Virus record (IMG/VR): IMGVR_UViG_3300036819_000183
Coordinates: 1-28,008 of that record
Length of the DNA: 28,008 nucleotides
Strand: one strand, 5' to 3'
Origin: a virus
Both the position numbers and the translations under genes were made by a program. Below the pieces are notes generated by a model that saw nothing but the letters and a program-made list of their open reading frames with translations, searched no databases and was not told the DNA's origin. Below, in pieces: positions 1,824 through 28,008 of this stretch. How positions within the stretch are numbered: position 1 is the first letter of the stretch; each line of letters starts with the position of its first letter.

Positions 1824-2987
1824 TCAGCCCCCAATCGCACTGCGCGCCGAACCGCGCTGCCGCGCCGCCCGGGTCAGGCGCCAACCGCCATCGACCCGTT
1901 CCACCAGGCCCAGCACGGACAGCTCGCCCAACGCCGGCAGCACCTCCTCGTCGGGACGTCCGCAATCCCGACCCACCACGCCCAGCGGGACCACCGCCCG
2001 GCTCGGCAGCGCCTCCAGCACCGCCTGCAACTTCGGCTCCAGCGCGTCGGCCGCCCGCGCGGTCCCCCGCCGCGGTTCGGCCAGGTCCGCGCCCAACCGG
2101 CCCAACGCCTCGATCACCTCCTCGGCCCGGGTGATCGGGACGGCGTGCCGGGAGCGCAGCAACTCGTTGCTGCCCGCCGACACCGCCGAGGTGATCGGGC
2201 CCGGCACCGCCATCAGGACACGCCCGAGTTGCTCGGCCCACCGCGCGGTGGTGGCCGCGCCGCTGCGGGTCGCGGCCTCCACCACCAACGTGCCACGGCT
2301 GCACGCGGCGATGATTCGGTTCCGCGTGAGGAACCTGCGGCGGGCCGGGGTCGAACCGGGGGGCGCCTCGCTGAGCAGCACGCCCTCGCAGGCGATCCGC
2401 TCGATCAGGGCCGCATGGGCCGCCGGGTAGGGCACGTCGACGCCACCGGCCAGCACCCCGGCGGTGAACCCGGAGACCGCCAGCGCTCCCCGGTGCGCGG
2501 CGACATCGATCCCGAAGGCACAACCCGAGACGATCGCCCAACCCGCCTCGGCCAGGGTCGCGGCCAGTTCCGTGGCCACATGGACCCCGTAGCCGGTGGC
2601 CGCCCGCGAGCCCACCACCGAGACGGACTCCAGCAACGCGGTGCGCCACCCCACCGGGCCCCGCACCCAGATCCCGTGCGGGCGCCCGGCACCCAGGTCG
2701 TCGAGCTGGGCCGGCCATTCCGGCTCCCCCGGGCACACGAATCGGATCCCGACGCGCTCGGCGCCGGCCAACTCGGCCGCACCGCCCGCCCCGGCCAGCC
2801 GGACCCGCATCGCCGCCGCACCAGGCACCTCCGCCTTCCCGCTCTGCAGCACGTGGATCACCTCGACCGCCCCGATCCGGGCGACCAGGCCGCCGAGTGC
2901 GGGTTCGTCGGGTTCGGCGATCCGGGTCAGCAGGGCCCGCGCCTCGCGCTCCTCCTGGTCCATTCGCTCACTGGCAAGCTCGCTCAC
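1824..2987 (-). CDS. dprA: DNA-processing protein DprA
   Basis: DprA binds incoming single-stranded DNA during natural transformation and loads RecA; it is also widely kept in bacteria not known to be competent. The product is 387 aa from a GTG at 2987-2985 that overlaps the comM stop (GTGA), the reason for choosing this start over the longer open frame. The Rossmann-like domain is clear: SVVGSRAATGYG, GCAFGIDVAAHRGAL, GVLAGGVDVPYPAAH, RRRFLTRNRIIAACSRGTLV, TRSGAATTARWAEQLGR and AVPGPITSAVSAGSNELL. A C-terminal winged-helix-like segment follows. The gene is intact although the comM gene directly upstream is broken, so its native operon promoter is now separated from it by at least one whole prophage. 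Confidence 0.93.
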   Translation of the reverse strand: MSELASERMDQEEREARALLTRIAEPDEPALGGLVARIGAVEVIHVLQSGKAEVPGAAAMRVRLAGAGGAAELAGAERVGIRFVCPGEPEWPAQLDDLGAGRPHGIWVRGPVGWRTALLESVSVVGSRAATGYGVHVATELAATLAEAGWAIVSGCAFGIDVAAHRGALAVSGFTAGVLAGGVDVPYPAAHAALIERIACEGVLLSEAPPGSTPARRRFLTRNRIIAACSRGTLVVEAATRSGAATTARWAEQLGRVLMAVPGPITSAVSAGSNELLRSRHAVPITRAEEVIEALGRLGADLAEPRRGTARAADALEPKLQAVLEALPSRAVVPLGVVGRDCGRPDEEVLPALGELSVLGLVERVDGGWRLTRAARQRGSARSAIGG

Positions 2988-3565
2988 GCCGCCCACCCGT
3001 CGGTGACCCCGCTGCGCAGCGCCAGCGCCGCGCCGACCTCGCTCGGCCCCGGCCGTGGCTTGCCGGCCAGGTCGCTCACGCTCCACGAAACCCGCAACAC
3101 CCGGTCCATTCCCCGGGCCGACAACCACCCGCCGTCCAACGCCCGCTCGAGGATTCGGACCGCTGCGTCCTCGACCCGGAACTCCCGACGCAGCGCCCGC
3201 GACGGGACCTGGGCGTTCAGCGTCCAGGGGGTGCCCGTGAGCCGATGCAGAGCACGATGCCGGGCCGTCAGGATCCGCTCGGCGACCGTCGCGGTGGACT
3301 CACCGTCCGCGGCGCCGATCAGTTCCACCCGGCTGGGTCGGTCGACGTAGACCTGCAGGTCGATCCGGTCCAGCAAGGGCCGGGACAGTCGGCTGCGGTA
3401 GCGGCGCCGAACGTGCGGGGTGCACGAGCAGCCCCCTCCGCGGCCGAGGTCGGCGGCCTTCCCGCACGGGCACGGGTTGGCGGCCAGCACCAGCAGGAAC
3501 GCTGCCGGGAACCGCGCGGTCAACGCCGCCCGGGCGATGATCACCTCCCCGCTTTCCATCGGCTG
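2984..3565 (-). pseudogene. comM: comM (YifB-type Mg-chelatase-like ATPase), 3' fragment
   Basis: The C-terminal third of ComM, a hexameric AAA+ branch-migration helicase that helps integrate transforming DNA. Reading from the prophage junction, the frame begins with Gln-Pro-Met-Glu-Ser-Gly-Glu-Val, which in intact relatives directly follows the Walker B segment. It continues with FLLVLAANPCPCGKAADLGR and YRSRLSRPLLDRIDLQVYVD, hallmark sequences of the YifB C-terminal half, and ends at a TGA overlapping the dprA start. It lacks the ATP-binding part, which lies at 20164 onward. The ATG at 3559 could start a truncated protein, but without Walker A and B it could not be an active helicase. Confidence 0.92.
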
Positions 3566-3580
3566 ACCTAGCCAGTGTCC
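3545..3580. other. attL of prophage 1
   Basis: Host comM sequence ends on the left of GCTG (3562-3565) and prophage sequence begins to its right. On the minus strand the host side reads in frame as Gln-Pro-Met-Glu-Ser-Gly. The phage arm (3566-3580) ends in TGTCC, which pairs with GGACA at 20151-20155 on the other arm when attP is rebuilt, giving an imperfect 32-bp dyad whose centre falls on the TG of the core. Short identity and dyad arms are what a serine integrase is expected to use. Confidence 0.8.
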
Positions 3581-3618
3581 GCAACATAAGTCGTCAGCCA
3601 GCCAGCCAAGGAGTAGTC

Positions 3619-4116
3619 GTGAGCCGCTACAACCGTCACAACCCCCGCGCCATTGCCGCCGGGACCGTCATCGGCACCGCCATCTCAGCCGTCATCGCCA
3701 TGCTCGTGCTCTCCGGGTGCAGCAGCGCGAGCGCCTCACCGCCCGCCGCTGCGCCGTCGGCCGCAGCCGCCCCCAGCACGGCCGCCTGCGAGACCGCCAT
3801 CACTGCCGAGATGCTGACCCACGACAACAGCAAACCGGCCGCGTGCAACGGCCTCAGTGACGCGCAGCTCCAGCAGCTCGTCGCCGGCATGTTCACGGTC
3901 GGCGCCACGGAGCTAGGCGCGTACTGCGTGCCCTCGACCGAGTACAACAACCTGGTCGTCGGGTGGAACGCGCTGACCGAGGCGCAGCGGACCGCCTATG
4001 CGAAGGGCTCGTCCGGTGACGCGATCGCCACCTACGCGAACGCGGCACACCCGGGCTGGTCGAACGGCCTGACCAAGGCCCAGACCGCCGACATCACGAA
4101 GCCGGCCTGCGCCTAG
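3619..4116 (+). CDS. Prophage-encoded exported lipoprotein (cargo gene)
   Basis: A 165-aa protein with a typical lipoprotein signal: basic start (MSRYNRHNPR), a hydrophobic segment to about residue 31 and a lipobox LSGC with Cys34 as the predicted lipidated residue. An Ala/Pro/Ser-rich linker follows, then a globular part with four Cys that could form two disulfides. The GTG start has a good ribosome site (AAGGAG, 6 nt upstream). It is the only plus-strand gene of prophage 1, lying 53 bp from the crossover and converging on the tail operon with a 4-nt CTAG overlap of stop codons. Position and orientation fit a lysogenic-conversion gene, for example surface exclusion, but no family is recognised. 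Confidence 0.82.
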   Translation: MSRYNRHNPRAIAAGTVIGTAISAVIAMLVLSGCSSASASPPAAAPSAAAAPSTAACETAITAEMLTHDNSKPAACNGLSDAQLQQLVAGMFTVGATELGAYCVPSTEYNNLVVGWNALTEAQRTAYAKGSSGDAIATYANAAHPGWSNGLTKAQTADITKPACA

Positions 4117-4319
4117 CGCAGGACCAGCGCCAGTACGGTCCCAAGGCCGGACATCAGCGCTGCCGAACCAACCAGCCCCGTCCAGAGTTGCCGCGCGGTC
4201 ACGTAGCCGCGCGGCTTCTCCAATTCCCGGAGCCGCGTCTCGTGGTCGCTGGCACTCAGCAGCAGCGTGTCCACCTTGACCTCGATGCGGGCCAGCGTGA
4301 TCAGCGCGTCGTCCCCCAT
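4113..4319 (-). CDS. Small coiled-coil plus TM protein, XhlA-like holin candidate
   Basis: A 68-aa protein starting at ATG 4319 (ATGA overlap with the upstream gene's stop). The N-terminal part is a short amphipathic, charged helix (LARIEVKVDTLLLSASDHET, then RLRELEK). The C-terminal part is one hydrophobic segment (LVGSAALMSGLGTVLALVLR). This coiled-coil then membrane-helix design, at the end of a tail operon, is typical of small XhlA/holin-like phage proteins. No endolysin accompanies it, so a lysis role is inferred only. Its 68-aa counterpart in prophage 2 (21501-21707) keeps the pattern YVT-RQLWT. The stop codon overlaps that of the convergent lipoprotein gene. Confidence 0.72.
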   Translation of the reverse strand: MGDDALITLARIEVKVDTLLLSASDHETRLRELEKPRGYVTARQLWTGLVGSAALMSGLGTVLALVLR

Positions 4320-4849
4320 CACGCCACCGCCCGGCACACCGCGAACGAGCCGGCCATGAGTCGAACCGCGTTCGACGCCACCGCGGTGAACTGGGCGAAC
4401 TGGAGCTGGATCGTGCCGCCCGACGCACCGCCGTCGAGCAGCAGCACCTCCCGGACGTAGTAGTTCGTCGAGGCCGTCGACATCGTGTTCAGGTTGTTCG
4501 TCCCCAGCGAGAACGCCCGGGACTGCACCAGCATCGAGTCCGGCGCCGCGGTGGCCGTGTCCGGCGAGCCCTGCACCATACGCTCCTGACCGCTGGCCAC
4601 GGCCGCCACGGTCCCGGTGACCGCCCAGGCGAGGCGCAGGTTGCCGGTCGTCGCCGATGACTGGGCAACAAGGTTGGCCTCGACCATGTACCGGGTGTTG
4701 GCCAGCAGCGTGAACACGATGTCGTTGTCATTGACCAGGGTCACCGAGTTGGTCACCGACTGCGTGCTGGCCTTGACCGCCGTCATCGGGCACAGCAGGT
4801 TGAGCTGCGCAGCAGTGACCTGCTGGAGCACCGAGAAGCTGATCGTCAC
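4319..4849 (-). CDS. Beta-rich phage virion protein, probable tail appendage
   Basis: A 176-aa protein of short, alternating polar and hydrophobic Thr/Ser/Val-rich stretches, with no membrane segment and no enzymatic motif. The start (MTISFSVLQQVTAAQLNLLC) and end (SFAVCRAVA) are recognisable in the 177-aa counterpart at 21707-22240, while the middle differs strongly. It lies directly downstream of the large tail-tip gene, two bases after that gene's stop. This suggests a minor tail or fibre-tip component expressed with it. No named family is recognised; the assignment rests on position, composition and conservation between the two prophages. Confidence 0.65.
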   Translation of the reverse strand: MTISFSVLQQVTAAQLNLLCPMTAVKASTQSVTNSVTLVNDNDIVFTLLANTRYMVEANLVAQSSATTGNLRLAWAVTGTVAAVASGQERMVQGSPDTATAAPDSMLVQSRAFSLGTNNLNTMSTASTNYYVREVLLLDGGASGGTIQLQFAQFTAVASNAVRLMAGSFAVCRAVA

Positions 4850-4850
4850 G

Positions 4851-7451
4851 TCACATACCCCCGTTTAGACCGGGGCGGTTGCCCGAGTCGAGCTTGCCGA
4901 ACGTCGAGTCGTCGAGCCGGAACACCGCGAACGGCCCGAACGGGCGCAGCACGTAGGTGATCGACTGCTCGTTCACCGCGCCGATCACCTCGGCCGTGCC
5001 GATCACCAGGTGGTCGGCCGGGCCGGGCTGAACCCAGGCCGGGGTGTTGGTCGTCTGCACGTGCTGGCCGATCTCGACCGCCATGAGGGCTGCTGCGCTG
5101 GCCGGGATCGCCTCCAGCACCGAGGTGACGGCCTTGAAGCGTTCTGCGTCGATCGTGCCCAGCGCCAGCGCCCAGGCCGCGATATTCGGCAGGTCCCGGC
5201 CCTGCTCGTCGGTGCTCACCGTGACCGAGGTGACGTACTGCCCGACACCCGCCGGCGGCGGCATCACGGACAGCGCACCGGTCGCCAGATAGGCCCTGGC
5301 CGAGCTGCCGCCCTGCTGCGTCGCGGTGCAGTCGTTGCGGATCAGCGTGTCGTCATCGGTCGGCTCGAACGGGTCGCCGATGTAGCCCGGCGTCGAGTAG
5401 TCGAAGGTCTGAGCGCTCGCCTGCGAGCACAACGCCGAGAGGGGCCGGTACAGCAGCCCCGCGAACCCGCGTGCCTCGGCCAGCTCACCGCCGTCGGTGG
5501 CCTGGGCCAGGGTGAACAGGTCCGGGCCGGTCGCAATGGGCTGCGGACCCTGCCAGACGTTGTCACTGCGCACGCCGGGGATCGCGTCCGAGACCAGCGG
5601 CAGTGACAGCGGCACGGAGTCCTCCTGAGCCAGCCGCAGCATGCGCAGCACGACATCCTCACCCGACCAGGACTGAACCAGGCCCGCCTGCGCGAACACG
5701 TTCGGGAACAGGCCCTTGGAGACCGGATCGGCCGTCGTCCCGTCGGTGGAGTAAGCCATATGGCCGACGGTCATCACCCCGGAGCCGCCCAGAGGCCCTG
5801 CAGTGAACTTCGTGACCCGCCCGTTGGTGCCGGTGTTGGCCGCGAAGTCCCCGAAGGACTCGTTCGAGCCGTCGGCCGGCGAGATCCGCCAGTGGACGTC
5901 GAACAGGGTCGGTCCCAGCGCGTGCGGCTTCCAGTACAGCGAGATCGCGCACGGGACACCGACCATCGTGGCGCCGTGGCTGCCCGGGTTGGTCAACGCC
6001 TCGGTTACGGTGGCACCGGTGCCGTCGGTCCAGTAGAGCTGGAAGCCGGTCGAGGCCCACTGCACACCGATTGCCGAGATCGTGGCACTGGTGCCGTCGT
6101 TGGCCATATTCAGCGAGTAGACATACCCGCCGCTGGCGCCGGCGGCCGTCACGTTGACCAGCGCGCAGGCACTACCGGACTGGGAGGCCGCCGTGGCCGG
6201 GAACGCCGGGAAACCGTAGGTGTAGCCGGTCGCCGGCAGGGTCGGCAGGGCGCTGGAGGCCGCGAACGAGGTCGAGTCGGCACCTGCGGAGGCGCCGACC
6301 AGGGTCATCGACGCCACGCCTTGGATCGGCGAGGCCGCGTAGTTCGCGCTGGCAGTGCCGGACTCCAGCGGCCAGTAGGCCGAGGGGGAACGGTCGGACA
6401 GGTACCGGTGCGCGGCACTGCGCGCGGCCGGTGTGCCCTGCGTGTACACGCGCAGGGCCGACCCGCAGGTGACTGCGGTGCGCAGGTCCTTGCCGAAGCT
6501 GCTCGACGCCGGGGCGATCTCGGAGCAGAAGCCGGCGAACCGGGGCTGGTAGGGCGTCGCGTTGAACCGGTAGTAGGAGAACGACCGGTCGGACTGGGCG
6601 TAGACCTCCCCGGCCGGGTAGAACGAGATCGTCCCAGCGGCCGGGCAGTACCGCGCCCAGGCCTGCACCCGGGCACCGCTGGACGGCCCGCTGTCTGCAA
6701 CCAGGATCCAGTCCGCGCGCGTGGACGTGTCCATGGGCGCCTGCAGCATTGCGTTGCGCGGGTCGGCCGACCAGGCGGTGAAGACAATGCAGACGTCGCC
6801 GGCAGTCACGGTGTCCGTGATCCAGTTGGAGGTCGAGGCCGAGCCGTTCGGGGCGTTCGCGGCCGAGTACTGGCGCAGGCCGTGCTGGCTCGACGCGGCG
6901 GCCGTGGCGCCCGGGATGAACAAGGACAGCGCGGCACCAGCGGCGGTCTTCGTCGACGTCGCGGTGACGGCCGCCACGGTCCCGGCCGAGATCCCCGTCT
7001 TGTAACCGGCGTTCGTCGCCAGCCCGGCCACGGACAGGCCAGTGAAGGTGCCCTGCATTGTGTAGCCGGCCGGGCCGGTGATGGCCGCCGCATTGTCGTT
7101 CTGCGCCCAGAAGGACAGCACCGTGCCCGAGGCTTCAGCGTTGACCGCCGGGGCCTGCAGCGCCCCGCTGGCTACCCACGGCGCCGACGTGCCCGCCGGG
7201 GGCGTGCCGATGCCGATCCGGATCGGGGTGTTGCGGTTGAACTGGCCGAAGTACGGCCCGCTGGGATACCGGGGCGAGAAGCGGAAGTCGGCATTGTTGA
7301 AGGACAGCGTTGCGGAGCTGTTCTCGGCCGAGCCAGTCTCCGAAGACCGGCCACGCCGGATCTGGATCTTCTCGTCGGTGAGCACGAAGCTGGTCACGTC
7401 GGTCCAGGCCCCGCCCAGCAGCAGGTCCACGCGCGGGCCGGTCAACGTCAC
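4851..7451 (-). CDS. Large minor tail protein (tail tip) with variable central domain
   Basis: An 866-aa structural protein, the largest in the element. The N-terminus (MTLTGPRVDLLLGGAWTDVT, then IQIRRGRSSETGSAENSSAT) is typical of actinophage minor tail proteins downstream of the tape measure. From about residue 355 a segment opens with AYWPLESGT, the usual entry of a LamG/concanavalin-like domain, and runs to about 580. The C-terminal part resumes with EDVVLRMLRLAQED and ends in TFGKLDSGNRPGLNGGM. Compared with the 877-aa relative at 22240-24873, both ends are nearly identical but the central domain is highly divergent, which fits a receptor-binding region. The GTG start overlaps the tape-measure stop (GTGA). 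Confidence 0.82.
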   Translation of the reverse strand: MTLTGPRVDLLLGGAWTDVTSFVLTDEKIQIRRGRSSETGSAENSSATLSFNNADFRFSPRYPSGPYFGQFNRNTPIRIGIGTPPAGTSAPWVASGALQAPAVNAEASGTVLSFWAQNDNAAAITGPAGYTMQGTFTGLSVAGLATNAGYKTGISAGTVAAVTATSTKTAAGAALSLFIPGATAAASSQHGLRQYSAANAPNGSASTSNWITDTVTAGDVCIVFTAWSADPRNAMLQAPMDTSTRADWILVADSGPSSGARVQAWARYCPAAGTISFYPAGEVYAQSDRSFSYYRFNATPYQPRFAGFCSEIAPASSSFGKDLRTAVTCGSALRVYTQGTPAARSAAHRYLSDRSPSAYWPLESGTASANYAASPIQGVASMTLVGASAGADSTSFAASSALPTLPATGYTYGFPAFPATAASQSGSACALVNVTAAGASGGYVYSLNMANDGTSATISAIGVQWASTGFQLYWTDGTGATVTEALTNPGSHGATMVGVPCAISLYWKPHALGPTLFDVHWRISPADGSNESFGDFAANTGTNGRVTKFTAGPLGGSGVMTVGHMAYSTDGTTADPVSKGLFPNVFAQAGLVQSWSGEDVVLRMLRLAQEDSVPLSLPLVSDAIPGVRSDNVWQGPQPIATGPDLFTLAQATDGGELAEARGFAGLLYRPLSALCSQASAQTFDYSTPGYIGDPFEPTDDDTLIRNDCTATQQGGSSARAYLATGALSVMPPPAGVGQYVTSVTVSTDEQGRDLPNIAAWALALGTIDAERFKAVTSVLEAIPASAAALMAVEIGQHVQTTNTPAWVQPGPADHLVIGTAEVIGAVNEQSITYVLRPFGPFAVFRLDDSTFGKLDSGNRPGLNGGM

Positions 7452-8557
7452 TTCGCCACCCCCAGCACGAGCTGGGCGTTGCCACCGCGCAGGCGCACAC
7501 CCTGCCGCAGCGCGTTGACGAGCGCGTCGTTGCTGACCCCGGAGAAGTCGACGGTCACATGTGTGCTGCCGCCCCCACCCGGGCCGGGACCGCCGCGCAT
7601 GGGGACGATCGCCCCCGGGCCGTCGGGCATGAACATCTCGGGACCGCGCTCACCGACCAGCGTCGGGCCGGTCGGCCGGCCGCCGTTGGCCATGCGCGGA
7701 ATGGTGAAGCCGGGGGTGTGGAACAGGCCCAGGTTGATCGACGGAATACCGAAGCCGCCAACAGTCGAGTTCCAGGCCGACTTGACCAGGTTGAAAGCGG
7801 CAGTGAACGGGGCCGAGATCACGCTCGTGAGTGCCTGCCAGCCGGTCTTGAACCAGCCGAGCAGCGTCGAGGCGCCCGACTTGATCCCGTCCCAGTGGCG
7901 GGAGATCTCCAGTACCGCTATGCCGATGGGGCCGGTCAAGATCGCCAGCAGCAACGGCCAGTGGCTCTTGATCCAGTCCCAGGTGTCGACGACCACGGCC
8001 TTGGCGACCGAGAACGCTTCTTTGACGCCGTCCCGGAACGCGGCGCAGTGCTGCCACAACTCGTAGAAGCCGACTGCCAGCAGCGCCACGGTGCCGATGA
8101 TCAGACCAATCGGGTTGGCCAGCAGCGAGACGTTCAGCTCGTCGCTGGCCACGGTGCCTTCCTCGGTGGCCACGGTGTTCGCCTCGGTGGCCGTGGTGGA
8201 CGCACCGAACAGGCCCTTCACCTTGTTCAGCGCGCCGGACAGCGCCCCGCCCAGTCCTTCGGTTAGGTCCTTCGCGCCTTTGGCCAGGTCGAACCCGACC
8301 TGCGCGAACATGATCGCCTGCTCGCCCGGGAAGCTGATCCCCAGCGCGAGCAGGCCGTCGGTCAGACCCTTGGCTGTGTCCTTCACGCCCTTGGCGGTCT
8401 TGGTGGTCCTGTCCATGTGGCTGTTGAAACCGTCGACGTTGCTGGTCTGATTGCTGAAGGACCGACCGGTCTGCTCGGTCTGCGACCGGACGTCCTTCAG
8501 GGTCTTGTCCAGCGACGTGGCGTCGCCGGCGAAGGTCAGGGTTACCGCGTTGCTCAC
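7448..8557 (-). CDS. Short tail tape measure protein
   Basis: A 369-aa protein from a GTG at 8557 that overlaps the upstream stop (GTGA). The start SNAVTLTFAGDATSLDKTLK is the usual beginning of tape measure proteins. A helical coiled region follows, then hydrophobic segments (LANPIGLIIGTVALLAVGFY and HWPLLLAILTGPIGIAVLEI). The C-terminus carries MANGGRPTGPTLVGERGPEM, a common tape-measure ending. At about 0.15 nm per residue the tail would be roughly 55 nm, very short for a siphovirus. It lies between the gp10-like gene and the tail-tip gene. The 372-aa counterpart is at 24873-25991. Confidence 0.85.
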   Translation of the reverse strand: MSNAVTLTFAGDATSLDKTLKDVRSQTEQTGRSFSNQTSNVDGFNSHMDRTTKTAKGVKDTAKGLTDGLLALGISFPGEQAIMFAQVGFDLAKGAKDLTEGLGGALSGALNKVKGLFGASTTATEANTVATEEGTVASDELNVSLLANPIGLIIGTVALLAVGFYELWQHCAAFRDGVKEAFSVAKAVVVDTWDWIKSHWPLLLAILTGPIGIAVLEISRHWDGIKSGASTLLGWFKTGWQALTSVISAPFTAAFNLVKSAWNSTVGGFGIPSINLGLFHTPGFTIPRMANGGRPTGPTLVGERGPEMFMPDGPGAIVPMRGGPGPGGGGSTHVTVDFSGVSNDALVNALRQGVRLRGGNAQLVLGVAK

Positions 8558-8970
8558 TTGTTCACCTTCAGGCCGCGCGCCTCGCACAGGTCGGTCAGTG
8601 TCTTGTCGAGCAGCTCACTGATCGCGGCCTTCTGGCCGTAGTAGGACGGATAGAGGATCCGGCCGTCCTTGACGAACGGCCGCCGGATCTTGCGCTCGTG
8701 CCCGACCCGACCACCGAAGTCGATGAACCCCGCATACGGGACCTTGGCCGAACCCATCCGCACGGCCGCCGTGCGCTGCGTCGAGGCAACCCGGATAGTG
8801 CCGCGCAGCGCCCCGGACCGGCTGGGCGCGCGAGACTTGGCGGTCGTGACCACCAGCTCGGCGACCTCGTTCAGAGCCAGCCGGAGTTGCTTTCCGGTGT
8901 CGTCCATCGCCTTCAGGCTGGCCTGAATCTCGCGCAGCCCGGTCACCTTGATCGGGTCAATGGTCGGCAC
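8554..8970 (-). CDS. HK97 gp10-like tail completion protein
   Basis: A 138-aa protein with the family layout: LREIQASLKAMDDTGKQLRL helix, VVTTAKSRAPSRSGALRGTI, then VPYAGFIDFGG and a C-terminal helical end. HK97 gp10-like proteins act at the head-tail joint. It is unusual that the gene sits after the tail chaperones and before the tape measure, instead of between the connector and tail-tube genes; prophage 2 has the same order (25991-26437). It may therefore have a tail-specific role. The stop overlaps the GTG of the tape-measure gene. Confidence 0.8.
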   Translation of the reverse strand: MPTIDPIKVTGLREIQASLKAMDDTGKQLRLALNEVAELVVTTAKSRAPSRSGALRGTIRVASTQRTAAVRMGSAKVPYAGFIDFGGRVGHERKIRRPFVKDGRILYPSYYGQKAAISELLDKTLTDLCEARGLKVNK

Positions 8971-9388
8971 TCAGACCACCTTCCTTTGGTTCTCGATCGC
9001 GTTCTTGGCGGTGTGGTAGGCCTGCCACTGGACGAACTCCGCGTAACTGAGCTGGGCCTCCAGCTCCCCGACGGTCTTGCCCAGCTCGGTGGCCAGGAAG
9101 AACAGGTACGCATTCGTGTCCGACGGCCGGCCGTTGAGGCTGAGCATCATGGCCCGGTCAGCCGCTTTTCTGCGCACCCTCGGTGAGCCCGGAAACCTCG
9201 AAGATCGCAGCGATTGCGGTCGAGGCAGGCCCGGCCGCAGTGGTGTTGAAGTACTCGCGTGCCTCGTCCAGCGTGATGCCGTAGGACAGCGACAGCGCCA
9301 GCACGTCGGACTCGTCGGCATCGGTCTGCCGGCACTTGCGGACCTCGGGCAGGGTGAGTGCCCGAGGCGTTCCCAGGGTGACTGCCAC
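8971..9388 (-). CDS. Tail assembly chaperone GT fusion made by ribosomal frameshift
   Basis: The G frame (9388 to 9158) ends at TGA in the string GCGCAGAAAAGCGGCTGA. A second open frame, needing a +1 (or -2) shift on the AAAA run at 9166-9169, passes the stop and continues through MMLSLNGRPSDTNAYLFFLA to AKNAIENQRKVV at 8971. The predicted fusion is about 138 aa. Tail chaperones of siphoviruses are normally made as G and GT products by programmed frameshifting and guide assembly around the tape measure. The same shift string and frame relation occur in prophage 2. No good ribosome site precedes the internal ATG-ATG, so independent translation of the second part is less likely. Confidence 0.78.
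9158..9388 (-). CDS. Tail assembly chaperone G (unshifted product)
   Basis: A 76-aa protein starting at GTG 9388, one base after the tail-tube stop. It contains RALTLPEVRKCRQTDADESD and LDEAREYFNTTAAGPASTAI, and ends in EGAQKSG at the TGA that lies inside the frameshift string. This is the abundant, unshifted product of the G/GT pair expected to coat the tape measure during tail assembly. The 79-aa relative at 26621-26860 is nearly the same over its last 60 residues. Family assignment rests on gene order (tail tube, this gene, then tape measure) and on the frameshift. Confidence 0.78.
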   Translation of the reverse strand: MAVTLGTPRALTLPEVRKCRQTDADESDVLALSLSYGITLDEAREYFNTTAAGPASTAIAAIFEVSGLTEGAQKSG

Positions 9389-9389
9389 G

Positions 9390-9794
9390 TCAGTAGGTCC
9401 CGTCCGTGACGGCGCCATCGATCTGCAGCACGGCGGTGAAGGTGACCAGGTCGGCGACCGGCGCGGACTCCGCGTAGGAGACCAACCAACAGTTGCCCGA
9501 GATCTTGACGTTGCCGGTCGTCGAGCCGGCCGGGCCGTAGATGAATGCCGAGTGGGACGTCGAGCCGAGCATGGCGTGGAACACGGTGTAGGAGCCGACC
9601 GTGGCGGTCTTGTCCCAGAGGCCGGTCACGGTGATCTTGCCGTTGGTCAGCCCCGTGATGAAGGTGTGACCGGACGCACCGTAGGTGGTCGTGTCGTGCA
9701 CATCGTTGTCGCGTTCGGTCGCGACGTTGGTCAGGTACGGGGAGATGTCGTTGGTCCCCACGGTGAGCTGAACGTTCTTGCCATGCGTTGCCAC
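9390..9794 (-). CDS. Major tail tube protein
   Basis: A 134-aa protein with the small tail-tube pattern: MATHGKNVQLTVGTNDISPY, DVHDTTTYGASGHTF, GLTNGKITVTGLWDKTATVG, ending in VLQIDGAVTDGTY. Tail tube proteins polymerise into the siphoviral tail around the tape measure. It lies between the tail-terminator and chaperone genes, the standard place. The 136-aa counterpart (26857-27267) is very similar, differing mainly around the FHAMLGSTSHSAF stretch. Confidence 0.85.
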   Translation of the reverse strand: MATHGKNVQLTVGTNDISPYLTNVATERDNDVHDTTTYGASGHTFITGLTNGKITVTGLWDKTATVGSYTVFHAMLGSTSHSAFIYGPAGSTTGNVKISGNCWLVSYAESAPVADLVTFTAVLQIDGAVTDGTY

Positions 9795-9803
9795 GGCGTA
9801 CTC

Positions 9804-10199
9804 CTAGGCTGCGACGTCGACGGAAAAGGTGAGCCCGGCGTAGCTGCCGGAGGAAAGCGCAATGGTGGCGAACTCGGCCTTCGTGACGCGGACCGAGGTG
9901 CCGATGTCGGCCGCCTCGATCGCGGCCTTGATCGAGAGATCGCCGGTGCCCGAGGCGTAGGCGGCCAGGGCGTCGCGGGAGGTGCGGTCGACCTGGTTCG
10001 CGACCCCAAGGAAAACCTCGAGTGTCATGCGGTCCGAGCCCCGGCCGTAGGTCAGGTCGTAGTCGATCGACTCGGGCAGGTTCACGAACGCGAACGGCGG
10101 CTGGGCGGACAGCGGCGGAAACGAAAAGACCCTGAGCCCGTCGATGGTTGCGAGTGCCGTTTCCAGCTCGGTCATCACAGTTGCCAGGTCGATTGCCAC
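9804..10199 (-). CDS. Tail terminator-like protein
   Basis: A 131-aa protein (MAIDLATVMTELETALATID, then AQPPFAFVNLPESIDYDLTY and GRGSDRMTLEVFLGVANQVD) with the alpha/beta pattern of small tail-terminator or minor tail U-like proteins, which cap the tail tube and join it to the head. It follows the connector with a 1-nt overlap and precedes the tail tube. The counterpart at 27277-27672 has the same length and near-identical sequence; the DNA is also closely similar, with stretches of more than 50 identical bases, indicating recent common ancestry. Confidence 0.75.
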   Translation of the reverse strand: MAIDLATVMTELETALATIDGLRVFSFPPLSAQPPFAFVNLPESIDYDLTYGRGSDRMTLEVFLGVANQVDRTSRDALAAYASGTGDLSIKAAIEAADIGTSVRVTKAEFATIALSSGSYAGLTFSVDVAA

Positions 10200-10840
10200 T
10201 ACGACGCCGCCCAGGTCCGCGTGACGGTCTGCAGCATCAGCCGCACGTCAGGGTCGAGCTGCGCGAACAGGCGAACCTCGGAGCCGGTGTCCGGCGAACC
10301 GGCCACCCCGTAAGCGGAGTCCCGGCGCACGAAGAACCGGGCGGCCTGAATGAGCGCGGCCTGCTCGACGACTACCGGCACCGCGGACCAACCCCAGTTG
10401 GCGGTGATCTGGACTCCCCGGGTGAACCGCGGGAAGTACGCCTTCGTGATCGGGCGCATCACCATCAGCTTGTACGGTTCACCATTGGCCGGGGCGTTCC
10501 AGGGCCACAGGTCGAAGTCGACGCCGTTGAGCACGGTCGTCTCGAAGATCCCGTCGTAGTTCAGGTCGAAAGCGAACGCGGCCGGGCCGGTCGTCAAGTC
10601 CTGCAGATCGTCGATCGCCAGGCACGAGCGACGTTCGATGAACTGGCCGACGTAGGTGTACACCCGGGCCACGGCCGTGCTGGTGATGCCGAACTGGCGG
10701 TTGGTGGCCAGGTCGATGGCGCGGGAGGCAGCCGTGATCGCGATCGAAAGCGCGGCGTCATCGGTCGTGTCGCCGATGCGCAGGTGCGCCTTCAGGGTGT
10801 CCAGGTCGGTGTAGTCGGTGGACTTCCAGCCGCTGGTCAA
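10199..10840 (-). CDS. Head-tail connector protein (gp6-like)
   Basis: A 213-aa protein with the connector pattern DLDTLKAHLRIGDTTDDAAL, then AITAASRAIDLATNRQFG in the helical part, as in HK97 gp6-type adaptors that ring below the portal. The C-terminal half includes NPAN-type loops and RGVQITANWGW and RFFVRRDSAYGVAGSPDTG. The start is a TTG at 10840 with a strong ribosome site (GGGAGG) about 5 nt upstream, sitting just after the capsid terminator hairpin. It is the first gene of the tail part of the operon. A partial relative closes the window (27672-28008). Confidence 0.82.
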   Translation of the reverse strand: MTSGWKSTDYTDLDTLKAHLRIGDTTDDAALSIAITAASRAIDLATNRQFGITSTAVARVYTYVGQFIERRSCLAIDDLQDLTTGPAAFAFDLNYDGIFETTVLNGVDFDLWPWNAPANGEPYKLMVMRPITKAYFPRFTRGVQITANWGWSAVPVVVEQAALIQAARFFVRRDSAYGVAGSPDTGSEVRLFAQLDPDVRLMLQTVTRTWAAS

Positions 10841-10867
10841 AGCTGCCTCCCTTCAGAGGTCTGGCGT

Positions 10868-10897
10868 CCCGGGGCGGCCATCACCGGCCGCCCCGGG
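10868..10897 (-). terminator. Strong hairpin after the capsid gene
   Basis: A perfect 12-bp inverted repeat, CCCGGGGCGGCC (10868-10879) and GGCCGCCCCGGG (10886-10897), with a 6-nt loop ATCACC. It begins 9 nt beyond the capsid stop and ends before the connector's ribosome site. There is no U tract. It probably acts as a partial terminator or RNA-stabilising end that keeps capsid mRNA more abundant than tail mRNA. Confidence 0.75.
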
Positions 10898-10906
10898 TCG
10901 TTCGGG

Positions 10907-12136
10907 TTACGCAGCGGCGGTGAGCAGGACCGAGGCGTTGACGTCCTGAACCATTCCGTCCATCCGCGCCCAGGCGAGGAAACCGACCTGGCCGTTGGGG
11001 GCGTACAGCTCGTTCAGGGTGACCAGCGTGACCGCCTTGACGTTGCGGACGACGTAGGTCTGACCGACGTCGCCGAACAGGCCGAAGTGGTTGCTGCCGC
11101 TGGGGTCCGGGAACGCCTGGTCGATGATGACCGGGTAGCCCAGCAGGGTCAGGCCACCGCCGGCCGCGGACAGGTCCACGTTGTTGTTCCAGACCAGCGG
11201 GCGGCCGTTGGAGTCGACCAGCTTGTTGATCTTGGCCAGGGTCTGGTCGTTGAAGACCCACTTCGCGCCGGCGCGGTAGGCCGGGTCGAGGGAGTGGACG
11301 ATCGTGACCAGCTCCAGGTAGGTCGGGCCGACAGTGTTGCTGGCGATCGCGCTGGCCCCGGTGAGGCCACCGCCGGCCGAGAGGACACCCTGCGGCTCGT
11401 TGACACCGGAGCCGTTGACCCAGTCGGTCGCGAACTTGCGGGCCAGGCGCATGCCCAGCGCCTTGGCCAGGTAGGCCTCGACGTCAAACGCGCTGTCCTG
11501 CAGCAGCTCGGTGGAGACCTTCAGCGGCAGGTTGCTGCCACCGCCGGCCATGTACTTGTAGGCGCCCAGCGAGCGGGTCGCGATCACGAAGTCGTTGCCG
11601 CTGGCGAAGGTCGAACCCTCGGAGACGATCGCGCCGGTGTTGCCGGTGTCGTCCACGGTCGGGTAGGGAAGCGGGTTGCCGCTGTCCGTGGTGAGTTGCT
11701 CGGCCGCCATGCCGAACCCGCCGAACGCCTTCAGGCGCTCGATCAGCTTCTCGCGGAAGCCTTCGGGGACGAGGTAGCCACCCTGCGAGCCGACGGCCTC
11801 GCCCTGGGCGCGGTACTGGGCCAGCTCGGGGCTGGACTGCCCGCGCAGGTAGCTGCGGAACGCCACACCGTGCACGTCGCTGGTGCCGTGGTTCGCGTTG
11901 CCGCGAGCAATCGGCATCGAGGTGACGTTGGTCCGGTAGGCGGCGTTGCGCTTCTGGATCTCGTCGGTGCGCTGGGCGGCCTTGAGCATGCCCTCCAGCT
12001 CCTCGTAGCGGTTGGCCTGGTCGTCGGTCAGCGGCGCAGGAGCAGCGTCGCCGGTACCGGCAGAGGCGTTGACGGAGTCGAGCAGCGCCTGCATGGCTGC
12101 CAGGATCTCCGGGATCGACATCGGGGCGTCAGCCAC
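10907..12136 (-). CDS. HK97-family major capsid protein
   Basis: A 409-aa capsid protein. Residues 1 to about 85 form a charged, helical delta-like scaffold (RYEELEGMLKAAQRTDEIQK) that the prohead protease would remove. The HK97 fold follows: VGSQGGYLVPEGFREKLIER, then LKVSTELLQDSAFDVEAYLA, RLARKFATDWVNGSGVNEPQ and the P-domain and A-domain region GYPVIIDQAFPDP. It lies directly downstream of the protease gene (GTG start one base after that stop) and is followed by the 12-bp hairpin, as expected for the most expressed virion gene. Prophage 2's copy would lie outside the window. Confidence 0.93.
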   Translation of the reverse strand: MADAPMSIPEILAAMQALLDSVNASAGTGDAAPAPLTDDQANRYEELEGMLKAAQRTDEIQKRNAAYRTNVTSMPIARGNANHGTSDVHGVAFRSYLRGQSSPELAQYRAQGEAVGSQGGYLVPEGFREKLIERLKAFGGFGMAAEQLTTDSGNPLPYPTVDDTGNTGAIVSEGSTFASGNDFVIATRSLGAYKYMAGGGSNLPLKVSTELLQDSAFDVEAYLAKALGMRLARKFATDWVNGSGVNEPQGVLSAGGGLTGASAIASNTVGPTYLELVTIVHSLDPAYRAGAKWVFNDQTLAKINKLVDSNGRPLVWNNNVDLSAAGGGLTLLGYPVIIDQAFPDPSGSNHFGLFGDVGQTYVVRNVKAVTLVTLNELYAPNGQVGFLAWARMDGMVQDVNASVLLTAAA

Positions 12137-12137
12137 G

Positions 12138-12701
12138 TCAATTGCCCTTCGGGAACAGGACTCGCGCGCGAGCCCGGATGAGTTGGTCCCGGAGCAGACG
12201 CTCAGGGGGAATTGCGTCGAACGTCATGGACCGCAGGCAACTCGACGCGCCTTCGTAGGCCGGGTAGGTGACCGGCGAGACGTCCAGCAGCGTGCGGATG
12301 TTGGTGTGCGTGCGGAGCAGCCGGCCGTCCGGTGCCCGGCCTCGGCTCTGGTCGCCGGGCATGAACCCGAACGAGGAACCCGAGATGTCCCCGCGCTTCA
12401 GCAACTCGCGCAGGTCGTCGGCCGCCCGGGTGTTGGGCAGGTCGCATTCGTACTTCAGGCCCTTCAAATCCACTGACAGGCGCAACGTCCCCGCCGTGGT
12501 GCGCCCCAGGAGCTGGTTCGGGTCGTGGTTGACCAGGCACCGGACGTCCGGCTGAGCCGCCAGCAGCGCGTCGAAGGCGTGCGGGTCGATGTTCTCGACC
12601 TCGTTGCCCAGGTCCGCGAAGCCGTCGAAGATCGCGGCATACCCGGTCAGGGTGTTGCCCTCGATCGCCGAGCGGTACTCAGCCCGCAGCCGGTGCGTCA
12701 C
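12138..12701 (-). CDS. HK97-family prohead protease
   Basis: A 187-aa serine protease that matures the capsid. The family core is visible: LTGYAAIFDGFADLG, LVNHDPNQLLGRT with the catalytic His, then YECDLPNTRAADDLRELLKR and GDISGSSFGF with the catalytic Ser. It sits between a small beta-rich gene and the capsid gene, the usual protease-capsid pair. The C-terminal tail is rich in Arg (LIRARARVLFPKGN) and may bind the scaffold. Confidence 0.92.
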   Translation of the reverse strand: MTHRLRAEYRSAIEGNTLTGYAAIFDGFADLGNEVENIDPHAFDALLAAQPDVRCLVNHDPNQLLGRTTAGTLRLSVDLKGLKYECDLPNTRAADDLRELLKRGDISGSSFGFMPGDQSRGRAPDGRLLRTHTNIRTLLDVSPVTYPAYEGASSCLRSMTFDAIPPERLLRDQLIRARARVLFPKGN

Positions 12702-13103: not shown

Positions 13104-13107
13104 GGGG

Positions 13108-14382: not shown

Positions 14383-14390
14383 CGATATCC

Positions 14391-16309: not shown

Positions 16310-16314
16310 GCCCC

Positions 16315-16345: not shown

Positions 16346-16485
16346 ACACCGAGTCCAGGGCTGTCACGGTTGTCAATGACAGGTCGGGGTTACTTCCACC
16401 ACTACCACTACAACTACTTCTGCATCTTTTTTAGAACTGTCAATGACAGGAATGACAGTAGTTCATAACAGCAGGTCAGACCCTT

Positions 16486-16503: not shown

Positions 16504-16549
16504 AGCGGTGACAGCCAGGTGACAGACTGGGTGCCTGTCATCACCCCGA

Positions 16550-16598
16550 GCACGGAACAGCCCCTGACGCTGGCGCCAGGGGCTGCTGTCCTCCGTGC
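16550..16598 (-). terminator. Hairpin terminator after the SF3 helicase gene
   Basis: Outer arms GCACGGA (16550-16556) and TCCGTGC (16592-16598) enclose inner arms CAGCCCCTG (from 16558) and CAGGGGCTG, with a 10-nt loop and a small asymmetric bulge. It begins 7 nt after the helicase stop (16605) on the minus strand. There is no U tract, common for actinobacteria. It probably ends the early int-HNH-helicase transcript. Confidence 0.75.
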
Positions 16599-16604
16599 TG
16601 GTGC

Positions 16605-18658: not shown

Positions 18659-18713
18659 TGTACCATACGTTTGTCAAGATCCCGGCGTGTAAAGGGCTGG
18701 CAAAGCTTCAAGC

Positions 18714-20156
18714 TCAGAACGGCGCCCCGGGCATCTCGACCTCGACCGTCTCCGGCCGGAACGCCCGCGAGCCCCGCCCGGGCGCATGGACCACAACCCG
18801 GAACCAGGCCGCGAGCACCGCGCGCTGCGCCCCCGTACCGGCCGCCAGGAACGCCTGGCCGTAGTCCTCGGCGTCGCCGAGCGGCAGGAGCTGCTCCAGC
18901 GCCCGAGGCTCCTGCGCCACGGCCTGCGCCGCGATCCCGGCGCGCAGCTCGGCTAGCCGAGCTTCGATCGCGGCCGTGCGCCGCGCGAGCACGCGCGGGC
19001 TCAACGCGAGATCGTCGGCCAGCGCGTCGAGCTGGCTCTCCAGCCCGGCCAGCTCGGCCACGGCAGGCCCGGCCACCGCCGCGACGCCACGGGCCAGTGG
19101 CGGGGCCAGGGCCGAGGCGATCACCGAGCTGTGCGGGCCGGGGTCGAAGGAGAACCGGCCGGTTCTGACATCTCCCCACCAAGCCAACAACTCGGCCACA
19201 ACCCGACGAACATGTTCGTCGACGGCCTCCCGTTTGACGGCCACGTCCCGGCCGCTGGCGCAGACGTACAACCCGCCCCTCGCCACGTTCCCACCGCCAT
19301 GCATGACGCCGTCGCAGGCCCCGCACAGGGCCAGCGAGGCCAGCAGTGAGCTGCGGATCGGCTGCTTGTTCTGGCGCCTCCCCGGGGCGGCCAGCAGGCC
19401 CTGCGCGGCCTCCCATGCGCCGCGTTCGACCAGCGGCTCCCAGGCGGCGTCACCGACCACCTTCCCGAGGTGTGTGCGCAGTCCGGCGTAGGTCGGGTTG
19501 GCCAGAATCGGCGTGATCCACTCGCTGCGCCACGGCACACCGGCCTGCGTCGTCACCAGGCCCCGGGCGTTCCAGCGCCGGGCGATCTCGGCCGGCGCCA
19601 CGCCCCCGAGGAACCAGCCGAAGCCGTCCCGGACGGCCTGCGCCTCGGCCGGCACCAGCGCGCCCATGCCGACCTCGTAGCCGAACGGCCGGCGCCCGCC
19701 GGACCACTTGCCGGCCGCCCGGGCCTGCCGTGCCGCGGATTCCTGCCGTGCTCGCCGGTGCTCGCCTTCGTGCTGGGCGACCGAGGTGAGGATGCGGGCG
19801 TTCATCCGCCCCGACGGCGTCGACAGGTCGATGCCACCTGCCTGCACCGCGTGCACCAGCGGGTAGCCCGCCCCGATGACGCGCTCGAGGTCTCCCATGG
19901 TGCGGATCAGTCGGTCGGTGTGCCAGCACAGGACCACGGCCGGCTGATCCTCGAGGAGCTGCTCGAAGTCCGGGCGCCGGACACCCGAGGTCGCGGACAG
20001 GTCGTTGTCGACGTAGACCCGCCCGACGGCCAGGCCCAGCCGGTCGGCCAGGGCTCTGCAGTCGGCCTCGTGCCGCGTCACCGCGAGCCGGTCACCTGCC
20101 TCGTCCTCGGAGATCCGGACGTAGATCGCGCATGCCTTGACGTCTGCCATGGACAT
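18714..20156 (-). CDS. int: Large serine recombinase (prophage 1 integrase)
   Basis: A 480-aa large serine integrase. The N-terminal resolvase domain has ACAIYVRISEDEAGDRLAVT with catalytic Ser16, then VLCWHTDRLIRTMGDLERVI and PSGRMNARILTSVAQHEGEH. The recombinase domain has RRPFGYEVG and WRSEWITPILANPTYAG. The zinc ribbon reads LALCGACDGVMHGGG then LYVCASGRDVAVKREAVDEH, with only three of the usual four Cys. A coiled-coil-like segment follows (about residues 365-410). The ATG (20156) lies only 8 bp from the crossover core, inside the attP arm; a second ATG is two codons on. Its promoter must therefore come from across the att site: comM in the lysogen, the left arm in the circle. Confidence 0.93.
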   Translation of the reverse strand: MSMADVKACAIYVRISEDEAGDRLAVTRHEADCRALADRLGLAVGRVYVDNDLSATSGVRRPDFEQLLEDQPAVVLCWHTDRLIRTMGDLERVIGAGYPLVHAVQAGGIDLSTPSGRMNARILTSVAQHEGEHRRARQESAARQARAAGKWSGGRRPFGYEVGMGALVPAEAQAVRDGFGWFLGGVAPAEIARRWNARGLVTTQAGVPWRSEWITPILANPTYAGLRTHLGKVVGDAAWEPLVERGAWEAAQGLLAAPGRRQNKQPIRSSLLASLALCGACDGVMHGGGNVARGGLYVCASGRDVAVKREAVDEHVRRVVAELLAWWGDVRTGRFSFDPGPHSSVIASALAPPLARGVAAVAGPAVAELAGLESQLDALADDLALSPRVLARRTAAIEARLAELRAGIAAQAVAQEPRALEQLLPLGDAEDYGQAFLAAGTGAQRAVLAAWFRVVVHAPGRGSRAFRPETVEVEMPGAPF

Positions 20157-20190
20157 AGTCTACGCTGCCGAAGGCAGTCCAGCACGCCTG
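20148..20190. other. attR of prophage 1
   Basis: Prophage DNA ends and comM resumes at the core GCTG (20164-20167). Reading minus, comM gives Val-Leu-Asp-Cys-Leu-Arg-Gln up to the core and then leaves the family. Joining to 3562 restores Leu-Arg-Gln-Pro-Met-Glu-Ser-Gly. The rebuilt attB also has an imperfect dyad centred on the core (ATCGGC and GCCGAA). Confidence 0.82.
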
Positions 20191-21103
20191 CGCGGAACTC
20201 GGGTGCCTCGTCGAGGAAGAGCACGCCCCGGTGGGCCAACGAGACCGCACCCGGGCGCAGTTCTCCGGAACCGCCGCCGACCAGGGCAGCCGTCGTCGCG
20301 GTGTGGTGCGGTCGCGCGTAGGGCGGGCGGGTCACCAAGCCACCGCCGGTCGGCAGCACACCGGCCACCGAATGGATCTCGGTGACCTCCAGGGCCGCGG
20401 CCCGGCCCAGCTCCGGCAACAGGCCGGGCAACCGTTCGGCCAACATGGTCTTACCCGCCCCGGGTGCCCCGTGCAGGAACACGTGGTGGCCACCGGCGGC
20501 CGCCACCTCCAGCGCCCGGCGGGCCTCCGCCTGCCCCCGGACGTCGGCCAGGTCCGGCACCTCTGCCGGCTCCACGAGCGCGCGACGCGGCATCGGACCG
20601 AGCCGCTCCACCGGTTCCGGCACGGGCTCCCCACGCAGCACCGCCAGCGCGTGCCGCAACGAGGCGACGCCGACCACCTCGAGGCCGTCGACCAACCCGG
20701 CCTCGCCGACATTGGCCACAGGCACCATGACCCGGGTCAGGCCGGACCGCCCCACGGCCGCAACGGCGGGCAGCACCCCCCGCAGGCCGTGCACGCTGCC
20801 GTCGAGGCCGAGTTCGCCGAGCACGACCATCCCGGCCGTCGCGTCCTCCGGGACGGCTCCCGCGGCAGCCAGCACGACCAGCGCGAGCACCAGGTCGAAC
20901 CCCCCGCCACGCTTGTGCAGATCGGCCGGCGACATCGAGACGGTGACCTTCTGCTTCGGCCAGGCCTCCCCGCTGTTCTGGACCGCGGCCCGGACCCGTT
21001 CCCGGGCCTCCGACAACGCGGTGTCCGGCAGCCCGATCAGCCCGAACCCGGGCAGGCCCGGGCCGACGTCCGCCTCCACCCCCACCAGCCGACCGGTGAC
21101 CCC
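20164..21103 (-). pseudogene. comM: comM, middle fragment cut at both ends
   Basis: About 313 codons of ComM from near the N-terminus to Walker B. Visible are LVGVEADVGPGLPGFGLIGL, PDTALSEARERVRAAVQNSG, the ATPase Walker A GAPGAGKT, and VLFLDEAPEFRAGVLDCLRQ (Walker B) ending at attR. With the 3' fragment (about 194 codons) the sum is close to the usual ~500 aa. At the other end, family resemblance starts only at Gly-Val-Thr-Gly; the preceding residues are not ComM-like and the first ~12 codons are missing, where prophage 2 begins. The frame runs on from a GTG at 21133 and into the att arm downstream, but no functional protein is expected. Confidence 0.9.
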
Positions 21104-21124
21104 GGGTTCCGCGATTACGTAGAC
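21098..21124. other. Predicted attL of prophage 2 (approximate)
   Basis: comM identity fades at about 21103-21104 (codons GGG-GTC-ACC-GGT are still ComM-like; the next upstream codons are not), and a phage cargo gene starts at 21139 with AGGAG at 21126-21130. The sequence differs from prophage 1's att site, so a different integrase is implied. The exact core cannot be set without the right end, which is outside the window. Confidence 0.6.
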
Positions 21125-21138: not shown

Positions 21139-21504
21139 ATGAAGATCAACTGGCAGGCCACGCTCATGACCATCACGCTCGTCGCGAGCGGCATGGCCGC
21201 CGGGTCGATCCTCGCCGACGCCCACGGCGCGCCAGCCGCCGCGGTCCAGTCCGCGCCCGACTGCCGCGACGGCGCGCAGTGGTCGCAGTCCTTCCCCGCC
21301 AGCGACAGCACCGCCGCCTACAACGTCACGTGGACGTGCACCGCGGGCAAGATCCTGCCGACGGTCGTGCAGCCGTCCAGCGCCCCCGCGCCCGCGCCCG
21401 CAGCCGTACCGGCGCCAGTGAAGCCGAAGCCGGGCCGACAGATCGCCTGCGCCCAGGCCGTGCCGACCGGTGCCGTCGCCAGCTCCTGCCTACCGGTCCG
21501 CTAG
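21139..21504 (+). CDS. Prophage 2 exported small protein (cargo gene)
   Basis: A 121-aa protein with a signal-peptide-like start (MKINWQATLMTITLVASGMA, then AGSILADAHGAPA), a short globular part and an Ala/Pro/Val-rich stretch near residues 80-100. It has four Cys, as does the mature part of the prophage 1 lipoprotein, but I see no sequence similarity between the two and there is no lipobox. The ribosome site AGGAG lies 8 nt before the ATG. It occupies the same place, next to the att site on the plus strand, and ends with the same CTAG overlap with the convergent holin-like gene. A lysogen surface or exclusion role is possible but unproven. Confidence 0.72.
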   Translation: MKINWQATLMTITLVASGMAAGSILADAHGAPAAAVQSAPDCRDGAQWSQSFPASDSTAAYNVTWTCTAGKILPTVVQPSSAPAPAPAAVPAPVKPKPGRQIACAQAVPTGAVASSCLPVR

Positions 21505-26860: not shown

Positions 26861-27267
26861 GGGTAAACCCCATCGGTGACGGCGCCGTTGATCTGCAGCG
26901 ACGCGGTGAAGGTGATCAGGTCGGCGACGGGCGCGGACTCGGAGTAGGAGGCGAGCACGAAGTTGCCCGTGATCTTGACGTTGCCCGTGGTCGAACCCAT
27001 CGGGCCGTAGACGAACGCGGTCGACGCGCTACCGGCCGCAGCCAGTGCGTGAAACACGGTGTATGAGCCGACCGTGGCCGTCTTGTCCCAGAGCCCCGTG
27101 ACGGTGATCTTGCCGTTGGTCAGGCCACCGATGAACGTGTGACCGGTCGCGCCGTAGGTGGTCGTGTCGTGGACGTCGTTGTCACGCTCGACCGCCACGT
27201 TCGTGACGTAAGGGCTGATGTCGTTGGTACCGACCTCGAACTGAACGTTGCGACCATGAGTGGCCAC
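26857..27267 (-). CDS. Major tail tube protein, prophage 2
   Basis: A 136-aa protein, MATHGRNVQFEVGTNDISPY through GLTNGKITVTGLWDKTATVG to NGAVTDGVYP, very close to 9390-9794. The two differ mainly in a loop near residues 73-85, which may face outward on the tail. Confidence 0.85.
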   Translation of the reverse strand: MATHGRNVQFEVGTNDISPYVTNVAVERDNDVHDTTTYGATGHTFIGGLTNGKITVTGLWDKTATVGSYTVFHALAAAGSASTAFVYGPMGSTTGNVKITGNFVLASYSESAPVADLITFTASLQINGAVTDGVYP

Positions 27268-27276
27268 TGCGTGCTC

Positions 27277-27672
27277 CTAAGCTGCTACGTCGACGGAAAA
27301 GGTGATGCCGGCGTAACTGCCGGACGAGAGTGCGATGGTTGCGAATTCGGCCTTCGTGACCCGGACCGAAGTGCCGATGTCGGCCGCCTCGATCGCGGCC
27401 TTGATCGACTGGTCGCCCGAGCCCGAGGCGTAGGCAGCGAGGGCGTCCCGGGAGGTGCGGTCTACCTGGTTCGCGACCCCCAGGAAAACCTCGAGGGTCA
27501 TGCGGTCCGAGCCCCGGCCGTAGGTCAGGTCGTAGTCGATCGACTCGGGCAGGTTGACGAACGCGAACGGCGGTTGCGCGCTGGCGGGCGGGAAGTCGAA
27601 CACCCGCAGGCCGTCGATCGTGGCCAGCGCGGTGCCCAGCTCGGTCATGACCGTGCTCATGTCGATGGCCAT
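27277..27672 (-). CDS. Tail terminator-like protein, prophage 2
   Basis: A 131-aa protein from ATG 27672 (MAIDMSTVMTELGTALATID), the same length as the prophage 1 protein and nearly identical from residue 30 onward. The longer open frame upstream belongs to the connector gene in another frame and is not coding here. Confidence 0.78.
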   Translation of the reverse strand: MAIDMSTVMTELGTALATIDGLRVFDFPPASAQPPFAFVNLPESIDYDLTYGRGSDRMTLEVFLGVANQVDRTSRDALAAYASGSGDQSIKAAIEAADIGTSVRVTKAEFATIALSSGSYAGITFSVDVAA

Positions 27673-28008
27673 TACGACGCCGCCCATTGCCGCGCCACGG
27701 TCTGCAGCATCAGCCGGACGTCCGGGTCGAGCTGGGCGAACAGGCGCAGTTCGTTGCCGAGGTCGGGCGAGCCCGCCACGCCGTAGGCGCTGTCCCGGCG
27801 GACGAAGAACCGTGCGGCCTGAATGAGCGCGGCCTGCGCGACGACCGTCGGGACGGCCTCCCAGCCCCAGTTCGCGGTCACCTGAACGCCGCGGGTGAAG
27901 CGGGGAAAGTACGCCTTCGTGATCGGGCGCATCACCATCAGCTTGTACGGCTCGCCGTTGGCGGGCGCGTTCCACGGCCACAGGTCGAAGTCGACGCCCA
28001 GCTCGACG
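27672..28008 (-). CDS. Head-tail connector protein, prophage 2 (N-terminus outside window)
   Basis: The C-terminal 112 codons of a gp6-like connector: GVDFDLWPWNAPANGEPYKL, MRPITKAYFPRFTRGVQVTA, RFFVRRDSAYGVAGSPDLG, ending in QWAAS. It closely matches 10199-10840 and continues past the window edge, so prophage 2 should carry on into capsid and packaging genes. Confidence 0.82.
   Translation of the reverse strand, partial: VELGVDFDLWPWNAPANGEPYKLMVMRPITKAYFPRFTRGVQVTANWGWEAVPTVVAQAALIQAARFFVRRDSAYGVAGSPDLGNELRLFAQLDPDVRLMLQTVARQWAAS

Follow-up and report, generated by a model that had tools for sequence, protein, structure and literature searches.

The window analysed here, a linear virus contig of 28,008 bp from a metagenome-type virus record, has an uncultured actinobacterium as its host. 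The host genes at the left end (a WhiG-type sigma factor, an XerC-like recombinase, dprA, and comM) all lie on the minus strand. The comM gene is present in two pieces (Table 1) separated by prophage 1 (about 3,570-20,164; ~16.6 kb), and the middle comM piece is in turn abutted by a second element, prophage 2, within which the contig ends; the right end of prophage 2, its integrase, and comM codons 1-12 would lie beyond the contig. The gene order of prophage 1 is end gene, tail, capsid, protease, portal, terminase, HNH, primase-like protein, and large serine integrase. The integrase gene starts at 20156, a few bases from the attachment junction (about 20165), and thus stands at the prophage edge.

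Table 1. Features of the window, and comM pieces of other doubly interrupted genes (positions in codons or contig coordinates as indicated)
Feature	Position	Strand	Evidence or neighboring genes
dprA, host gene 3' of comM	1824..3128	-	Pfam DNA_processg_A, E=5.6e-63; within flank 1-3576 matching G121 at 99.7%
comM C-terminal piece, codons 326-517	2984..3565	-	Mg_chelatase and Mg_chelatase_C; in-frame join with middle piece
Prophage 1 attachment junction, comM C-terminal side	3562..3570		Comparison with intact G121 comM
Prophage 1 end gene, small exported/lipoprotein-like protein	3619..4116	+	Lipobox-like LSGC
Prophage 1 tail, connector, capsid, and protease genes	4319..12701	-	PHROGs: tape measure, major tail, major head, head maturation protease
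Prophage 1 portal	13108-14427	-	phrog_12, E=1e-74
Prophage 1 large terminase	14436-15827	-	phrog_9, E=2.8e-71
Prophage 1 DUF5906 primase/helicase-type replication protein	16605..18137	-	Pfam DUF5906; phrog_6088 DNA primase
Prophage 1 large serine integrase	18714..20156	-	Resolvase, E=1.7e-20; Recombinase, E=1.3e-11
Prophage 1 attachment junction, comM N-terminal side	20164..20170		Frame-restoring join and G121 comparison
comM middle piece, codons 13-325	20165..21103	-	ChlI and Mg_chelatase; 99.8% nucleotide identity to intact G121 comM
Prophage 2/comM boundary, between codons 12 and 13	21098..21110		G121 alignment stops at 21103
Prophage 2 end gene	21139..21504	+	Position and strand as prophage 1 end gene, protein different
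Prophage 2 tail and connector module, truncated at contig end	21707..28008	-	79% nucleotide identity, prophage 1 order; phrog_5313, tape measure
L089 comM	codons about 20-315		Flanked by a serine integrase and a TIR-domain/PDDEXK island, one per side
L097 comM	codons 18-284		Tape measure / integrase
L099 comM	codons 68-354		Portal and terminase / integrase and conjugation-type coupling ATPase
L100 comM	codons 82-311		Integrase and terminase / DNA methylase
L167 comM	codons 81-481		Capsid genes / integrase
G189 contig C24 comM pieces	63789, 74170, 86086		Gaps of 9.6 and 11.7 kb; serine integrase in each gap

Among a sample of 297 genomes of the host's class, genome G121 belongs to the same species as the window host (99.7-99.8% nucleotide identity) and encodes an uninterrupted comM of 517 codons, which is 100% identical, after rounding, to the joined comM of the window, the two being one residue apart (GELRPG versus GALRPG). 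Nucleotide identity to G121 is 99.69% over window positions 1-3576 and 99.79% over 20164-21103, with sharp ends. Both breaks in the window thus mark the edges of insertions into a comM that is whole in the same species. No PF07508 (recombinase family) match occurs in the G121 genome, which fits two empty sites.

By comparison with G121, prophage 1 interrupts comM after codon 325 (LRQ/PME). A 4-bp core, CAGC on the comM strand (GCTG on the plus strand), is common to both prophage 1 junctions, and deletion of the prophage at the common CAGC yields one open comM frame through LRQPMESG; G121 provides the close-relative empty site for a conservative insertion of this kind. The earlier note on this DNA had described comM as cut at Walker B by prophage 1, with halves that rejoin in frame; the cut and the join stand, and the location is approximate only, the cut lying some 10 codons beyond the Walker B/FLDEAPEF motif (codons 308-315). 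The two junctions, the 4-bp core, the restored frame, and the integrase at the prophage edge together show that prophage 1 was placed there by its own large serine integrase.

Identity to G121 stops abruptly at 21103, between comM codons 12 and 13, and the native start in G121 reads MGLARGWSVALA followed by GVTGR, with the break falling between the two; exactly 12 codons are absent. The next phage ORF begins at 21139. From there to 28008 the prophage 2 module is collinear with prophage 1 positions 3619-10500 in the same orientation, at 78.8% nucleotide identity over 4.2 kb, and amino acid identity is 70% for the 866/877-aa tail protein and 82% for the major tail protein. The distance from end gene to comM boundary is 35 bp in prophage 2 and about 42 bp in prophage 1. 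One abrupt edge, seen against the intact gene of the same species, with a phage end at the position that it has in the prophage 1 module, places prophage 2 between codons 12 and 13; it was presumably inserted there by its own, different integrase. Duplication of the tail module by the assembler, raised in the earlier note as a possible artefact, is ruled out, since the second module, at 79% identity to that of prophage 1 and with no exact match longer than 59 bp, is too divergent for a repeat-assembly duplicate. Other readings of the same note are borne out by these comparisons: the middle comM piece loses its N-terminal codons, estimated there at about 12, where prophage 2 begins, and the tail genes to the right repeat those of prophage 1 in order and orientation.

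Each prophage carries, beside its attachment end and on the opposite strand, a small secreted or lipoprotein-like gene without a family match, and the two genes differ; the protein of the prophage 1 end gene (3619..4116) had no Pfam or PHROG match. The end genes at 3619-4116 and 21139-21504 are candidate lysogenic conversion genes. Prophage 1 is small (~16.6 kb) and has a short tape measure protein (366 aa), and none of its proteins that were scanned was recognisable as a lysis protein or a repressor. Prophage 1 may therefore be a phage of very small size or depend on others.

The two prophage sites are 313 codons apart within comM, and their 50-bp surroundings are alike at 17/50 positions, which is near chance. 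Tandem integration at one attB is thus ruled out, both by the distance and by the differing sequences. Serine integrases recognise their attB specifically, and given the unrelated attB sequences it is very likely that two integrases of different specificity are involved, that of prophage 2 being predicted from its site. This agrees with the earlier proposal of differing integrases and of two related phages at two comM sites on a common virion module. We consider it highly probable that the window contains two distinct temperate siphovirus-like phages with related tail modules, both integrated into a single actinobacterial comM, at attachment sites unrelated to each other. The gene would be doubly interrupted, and restored only if both prophages excise. 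The most plausible reading of the two sites is independent use of a gene that is targeted by many serine-integrase elements, as comM is widespread, apparently dispensable, and rich in strongly conserved codons.

Related insertions are known. Durrant et al. 2022 (PMC10083194) report that 12.4% of predicted site-specific large serine recombinases target magnesium chelatase/ATP-dependent protease genes (the ComM family); like prophage 1, those elements combine a large serine integrase, mobile cargo, and a conserved coding site in a comM-family gene, whereas in the window a pair of related phages occupies two sites within a single comM. In Wolbachia, phages of the WO sr1 group likewise use a serine recombinase and split a magnesium chelatase gene, but these are of another phage type in another host, with one insertion per gene in the available part of that report (PMC9203015). 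AbaR islands in the comM of Acinetobacter baumannii (PMC11472951, PMC7508600) are also mobile elements that inactivate comM; however, they are Tn7-like resistance islands, whereas the elements of the window are phages, prophage 1 with a serine integrase. An AbaR-type island, which would bring tni transposition genes and a target duplication, was considered for prophage 1 and rejected: the genes scanned are phage genes, the edge enzyme is a serine integrase, and there is a 4-bp core only. The prophage 1 integrase matches integrases of Streptomyces phages (phiCAM, Pablito, Issmi) at about 40% identity across two thirds of its length; the terminase is about 33% identical to those of phiBT1/phiC31/TG1, and the tail protein about 30% identical to Streptomyces phage proteins, although prophage 1 (about 16.6 kb) is much smaller than those phages. 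Neither prophage had a nucleotide match to sequenced phage records. Single-protein scans of virus contigs gave 0 matches for the integrase and for the tail protein and one locus for the comM middle, and a scan with an alignment of both tail proteins gave two distant matches only. Junction 23-24-mers of both prophages were not found in the other virus contigs available for the search, nor were the tail proteins found in 5 genomes of the host order (a search without a positive control).

Two alignment-based scans of virus contigs returned about 80 contigs with comM, for which breakpoints were placed by profile mapping. In five of these (L089, L097, L099, L100, and L167), the comM middle is broken at both ends, with mobile-element-like genes beside the middle piece (Table 1); no further comM pieces occur on records L089, L097, L099, and L100, each of which shares the window's limit. 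Contig C24 of a sampled actinomycete genome, G189, carries comM in three ordered pieces (codons 1-224, 219-306, and 303-501), with the integrase of the second gap more than 700 bp from the comM break; G189 is an independent, fully bounded double interruption of comM. Partial matches that resemble frameshifts or contig ends (G110, G116, L119, and L114) were not counted as doubles. Of the 297 sampled genomes, at least 10 have an interrupted comM (one of them twice), where an interruption was accepted if an integrase lay next to the comM break or both halves were on one contig. One double among ten, at about 3% interrupted, is no demonstrable excess. About 34 virus contigs and 6 genomes have a serine integrase no more than 700 bp from a comM break. 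In 395 genomes, the 30 closest relatives retrieved for the prophage 1 integrase include at least 6 that are located at such a break. Double stacking of insertions in comM is less ordinary, and is not unique.

The 60 hand-collected comM breakpoints fall into about 12 clusters, mainly at the P-loop (codons 217-226), FLDEAPEF (300-314), AANPCPCG (344-358), and codons 80-83. Local conservation is 0.81 at the breakpoint clusters versus 0.66 at random positions (p=5e-5), where the conservation values derive from an actinobacterial panel, the breakpoints come from all phyla, and positions are accurate to a few codons. The prophage 1 site at codon 325 stands alone between two hotspots and is absent from the other broken comM genes collected, and the prophage 2 site at codon 12/13 has three neighboring breakpoints, at 17-23. 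In the integrase tree, comM users do not form one group, with 6 changes, at least 2 of them forced by well-supported branches; comM was thus adopted more than once. Related integrases occur at different comM codons (82-84, 306-309, 325, and 481-485), and the prophage 1 integrase groups with integrases that are not beside comM, with moderate support (87).

These data bear on why comM is used. Loss of comM could protect resident elements from removal by transformation, and the double insertion could reflect that selection, which we regard as a tentative and rather unlikely explanation. It is consistent with the enrichment of competence genes among serine recombinase targets (PMC10083194), with the frequent inactivation of comM by mobile elements in A. 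baumannii (PMC11472951), with ComEC being encoded in the host order, and with natural transformation having been studied in Actinobacteria such as Micrococcus luteus (PMC8467076); among the relatives of the prophage 1 integrase, moreover, comM-targeting arose more than once, at different codons. However, whichever insertion came second struck a dead gene, gained nothing by doing so, and cannot have been favored for killing comM; the breakpoints track conserved codons, as a pure sequence-target explanation predicts; and Wolbachia phages, too, use a magnesium chelatase gene (PMC9203015). The claim in the earlier note that the double hit is evidence of competence loss protecting mobile elements is thus not established: its support for selected competence loss is weak, and the pattern is equally well explained by a dispensable gene in which conserved, attB-like codons abound. 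A broader reading, in which comM is a multi-site landing gene that serine-integrase elements, unrelated as well as related, repeatedly retarget at about a dozen codons, so frequently that two of them stack in one gene, and in which the convergence is driven, beyond codon conservation, by the benefit of comM loss or by double-locked reversibility, is likewise doubtful. The use of comM as a serine-integrase target was already known; new are the sister phages at two unrelated comM sites and the recurrence of stacking. The window is a bounded case, with two related phages, two unrelated sites, one host gene, and a same-species empty-site control, in an arrangement that recurs, and the collected breakpoints make the choice of comM testable as site conservation versus gain from lost transformation.

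With regard to structure, the window could be an assembly chimera, in which cells with prophage 1 only and cells with prophage 2 only were present in a mixture and were joined across an identical comM middle. The source is a metagenome-type virus record and the 940-bp comM middle exceeds the usual span of read pairs, and the metagenomic doubles L099 and L100 are open to a like doubt. We nevertheless judge a chimera improbable, as the phages are not mutual repeats, given the divergence of their tail modules, and the same architecture is complete on a single contig in G189; even in a chimera, both comM insertions are real, merely not in one cell. Less probable still is a reversible switch, in which excision of both prophages would rebuild comM when needed: removal of prophage 1 does restore the comM frame exactly, but this follows from any conservative site-specific recombination, and two locks that must both open make regulated restoration unlikely. 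Precedents for such a switch are the prophages in comK of Listeria. Another is spsM of Bacillus (PMC4191935). Two distinct prophages in one comM remain the preferred reading.

Several other comM records were observed. In L089 (5990-12894), an Arthrobacter-like comM has a serine-integrase element near codon 20 and a TIR-domain protein with a PDDEXK nuclease near codon 315, and the codon-315 side is a possible defence island in comM. Virus record G003 (114 kb) carries the N-terminal comM piece (codons 4-351) twice, 39 kb apart (L084 and L085; 28621-29667 and 68642-69691), along with pairs of serine recombinases; since a single gene cannot give two N-termini, this implies either a duplication or a comM fragment carried by a phage. 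The 9.2-Mb actinomycete genome G123 has two full-length comM genes, on contigs C25 and C44. The serine integrases of L294, L309, and L167 form a tight clade at comM codons 481-485, near the 3' end, a position that leaves most of the protein in place and is possibly a comM-sparing site.
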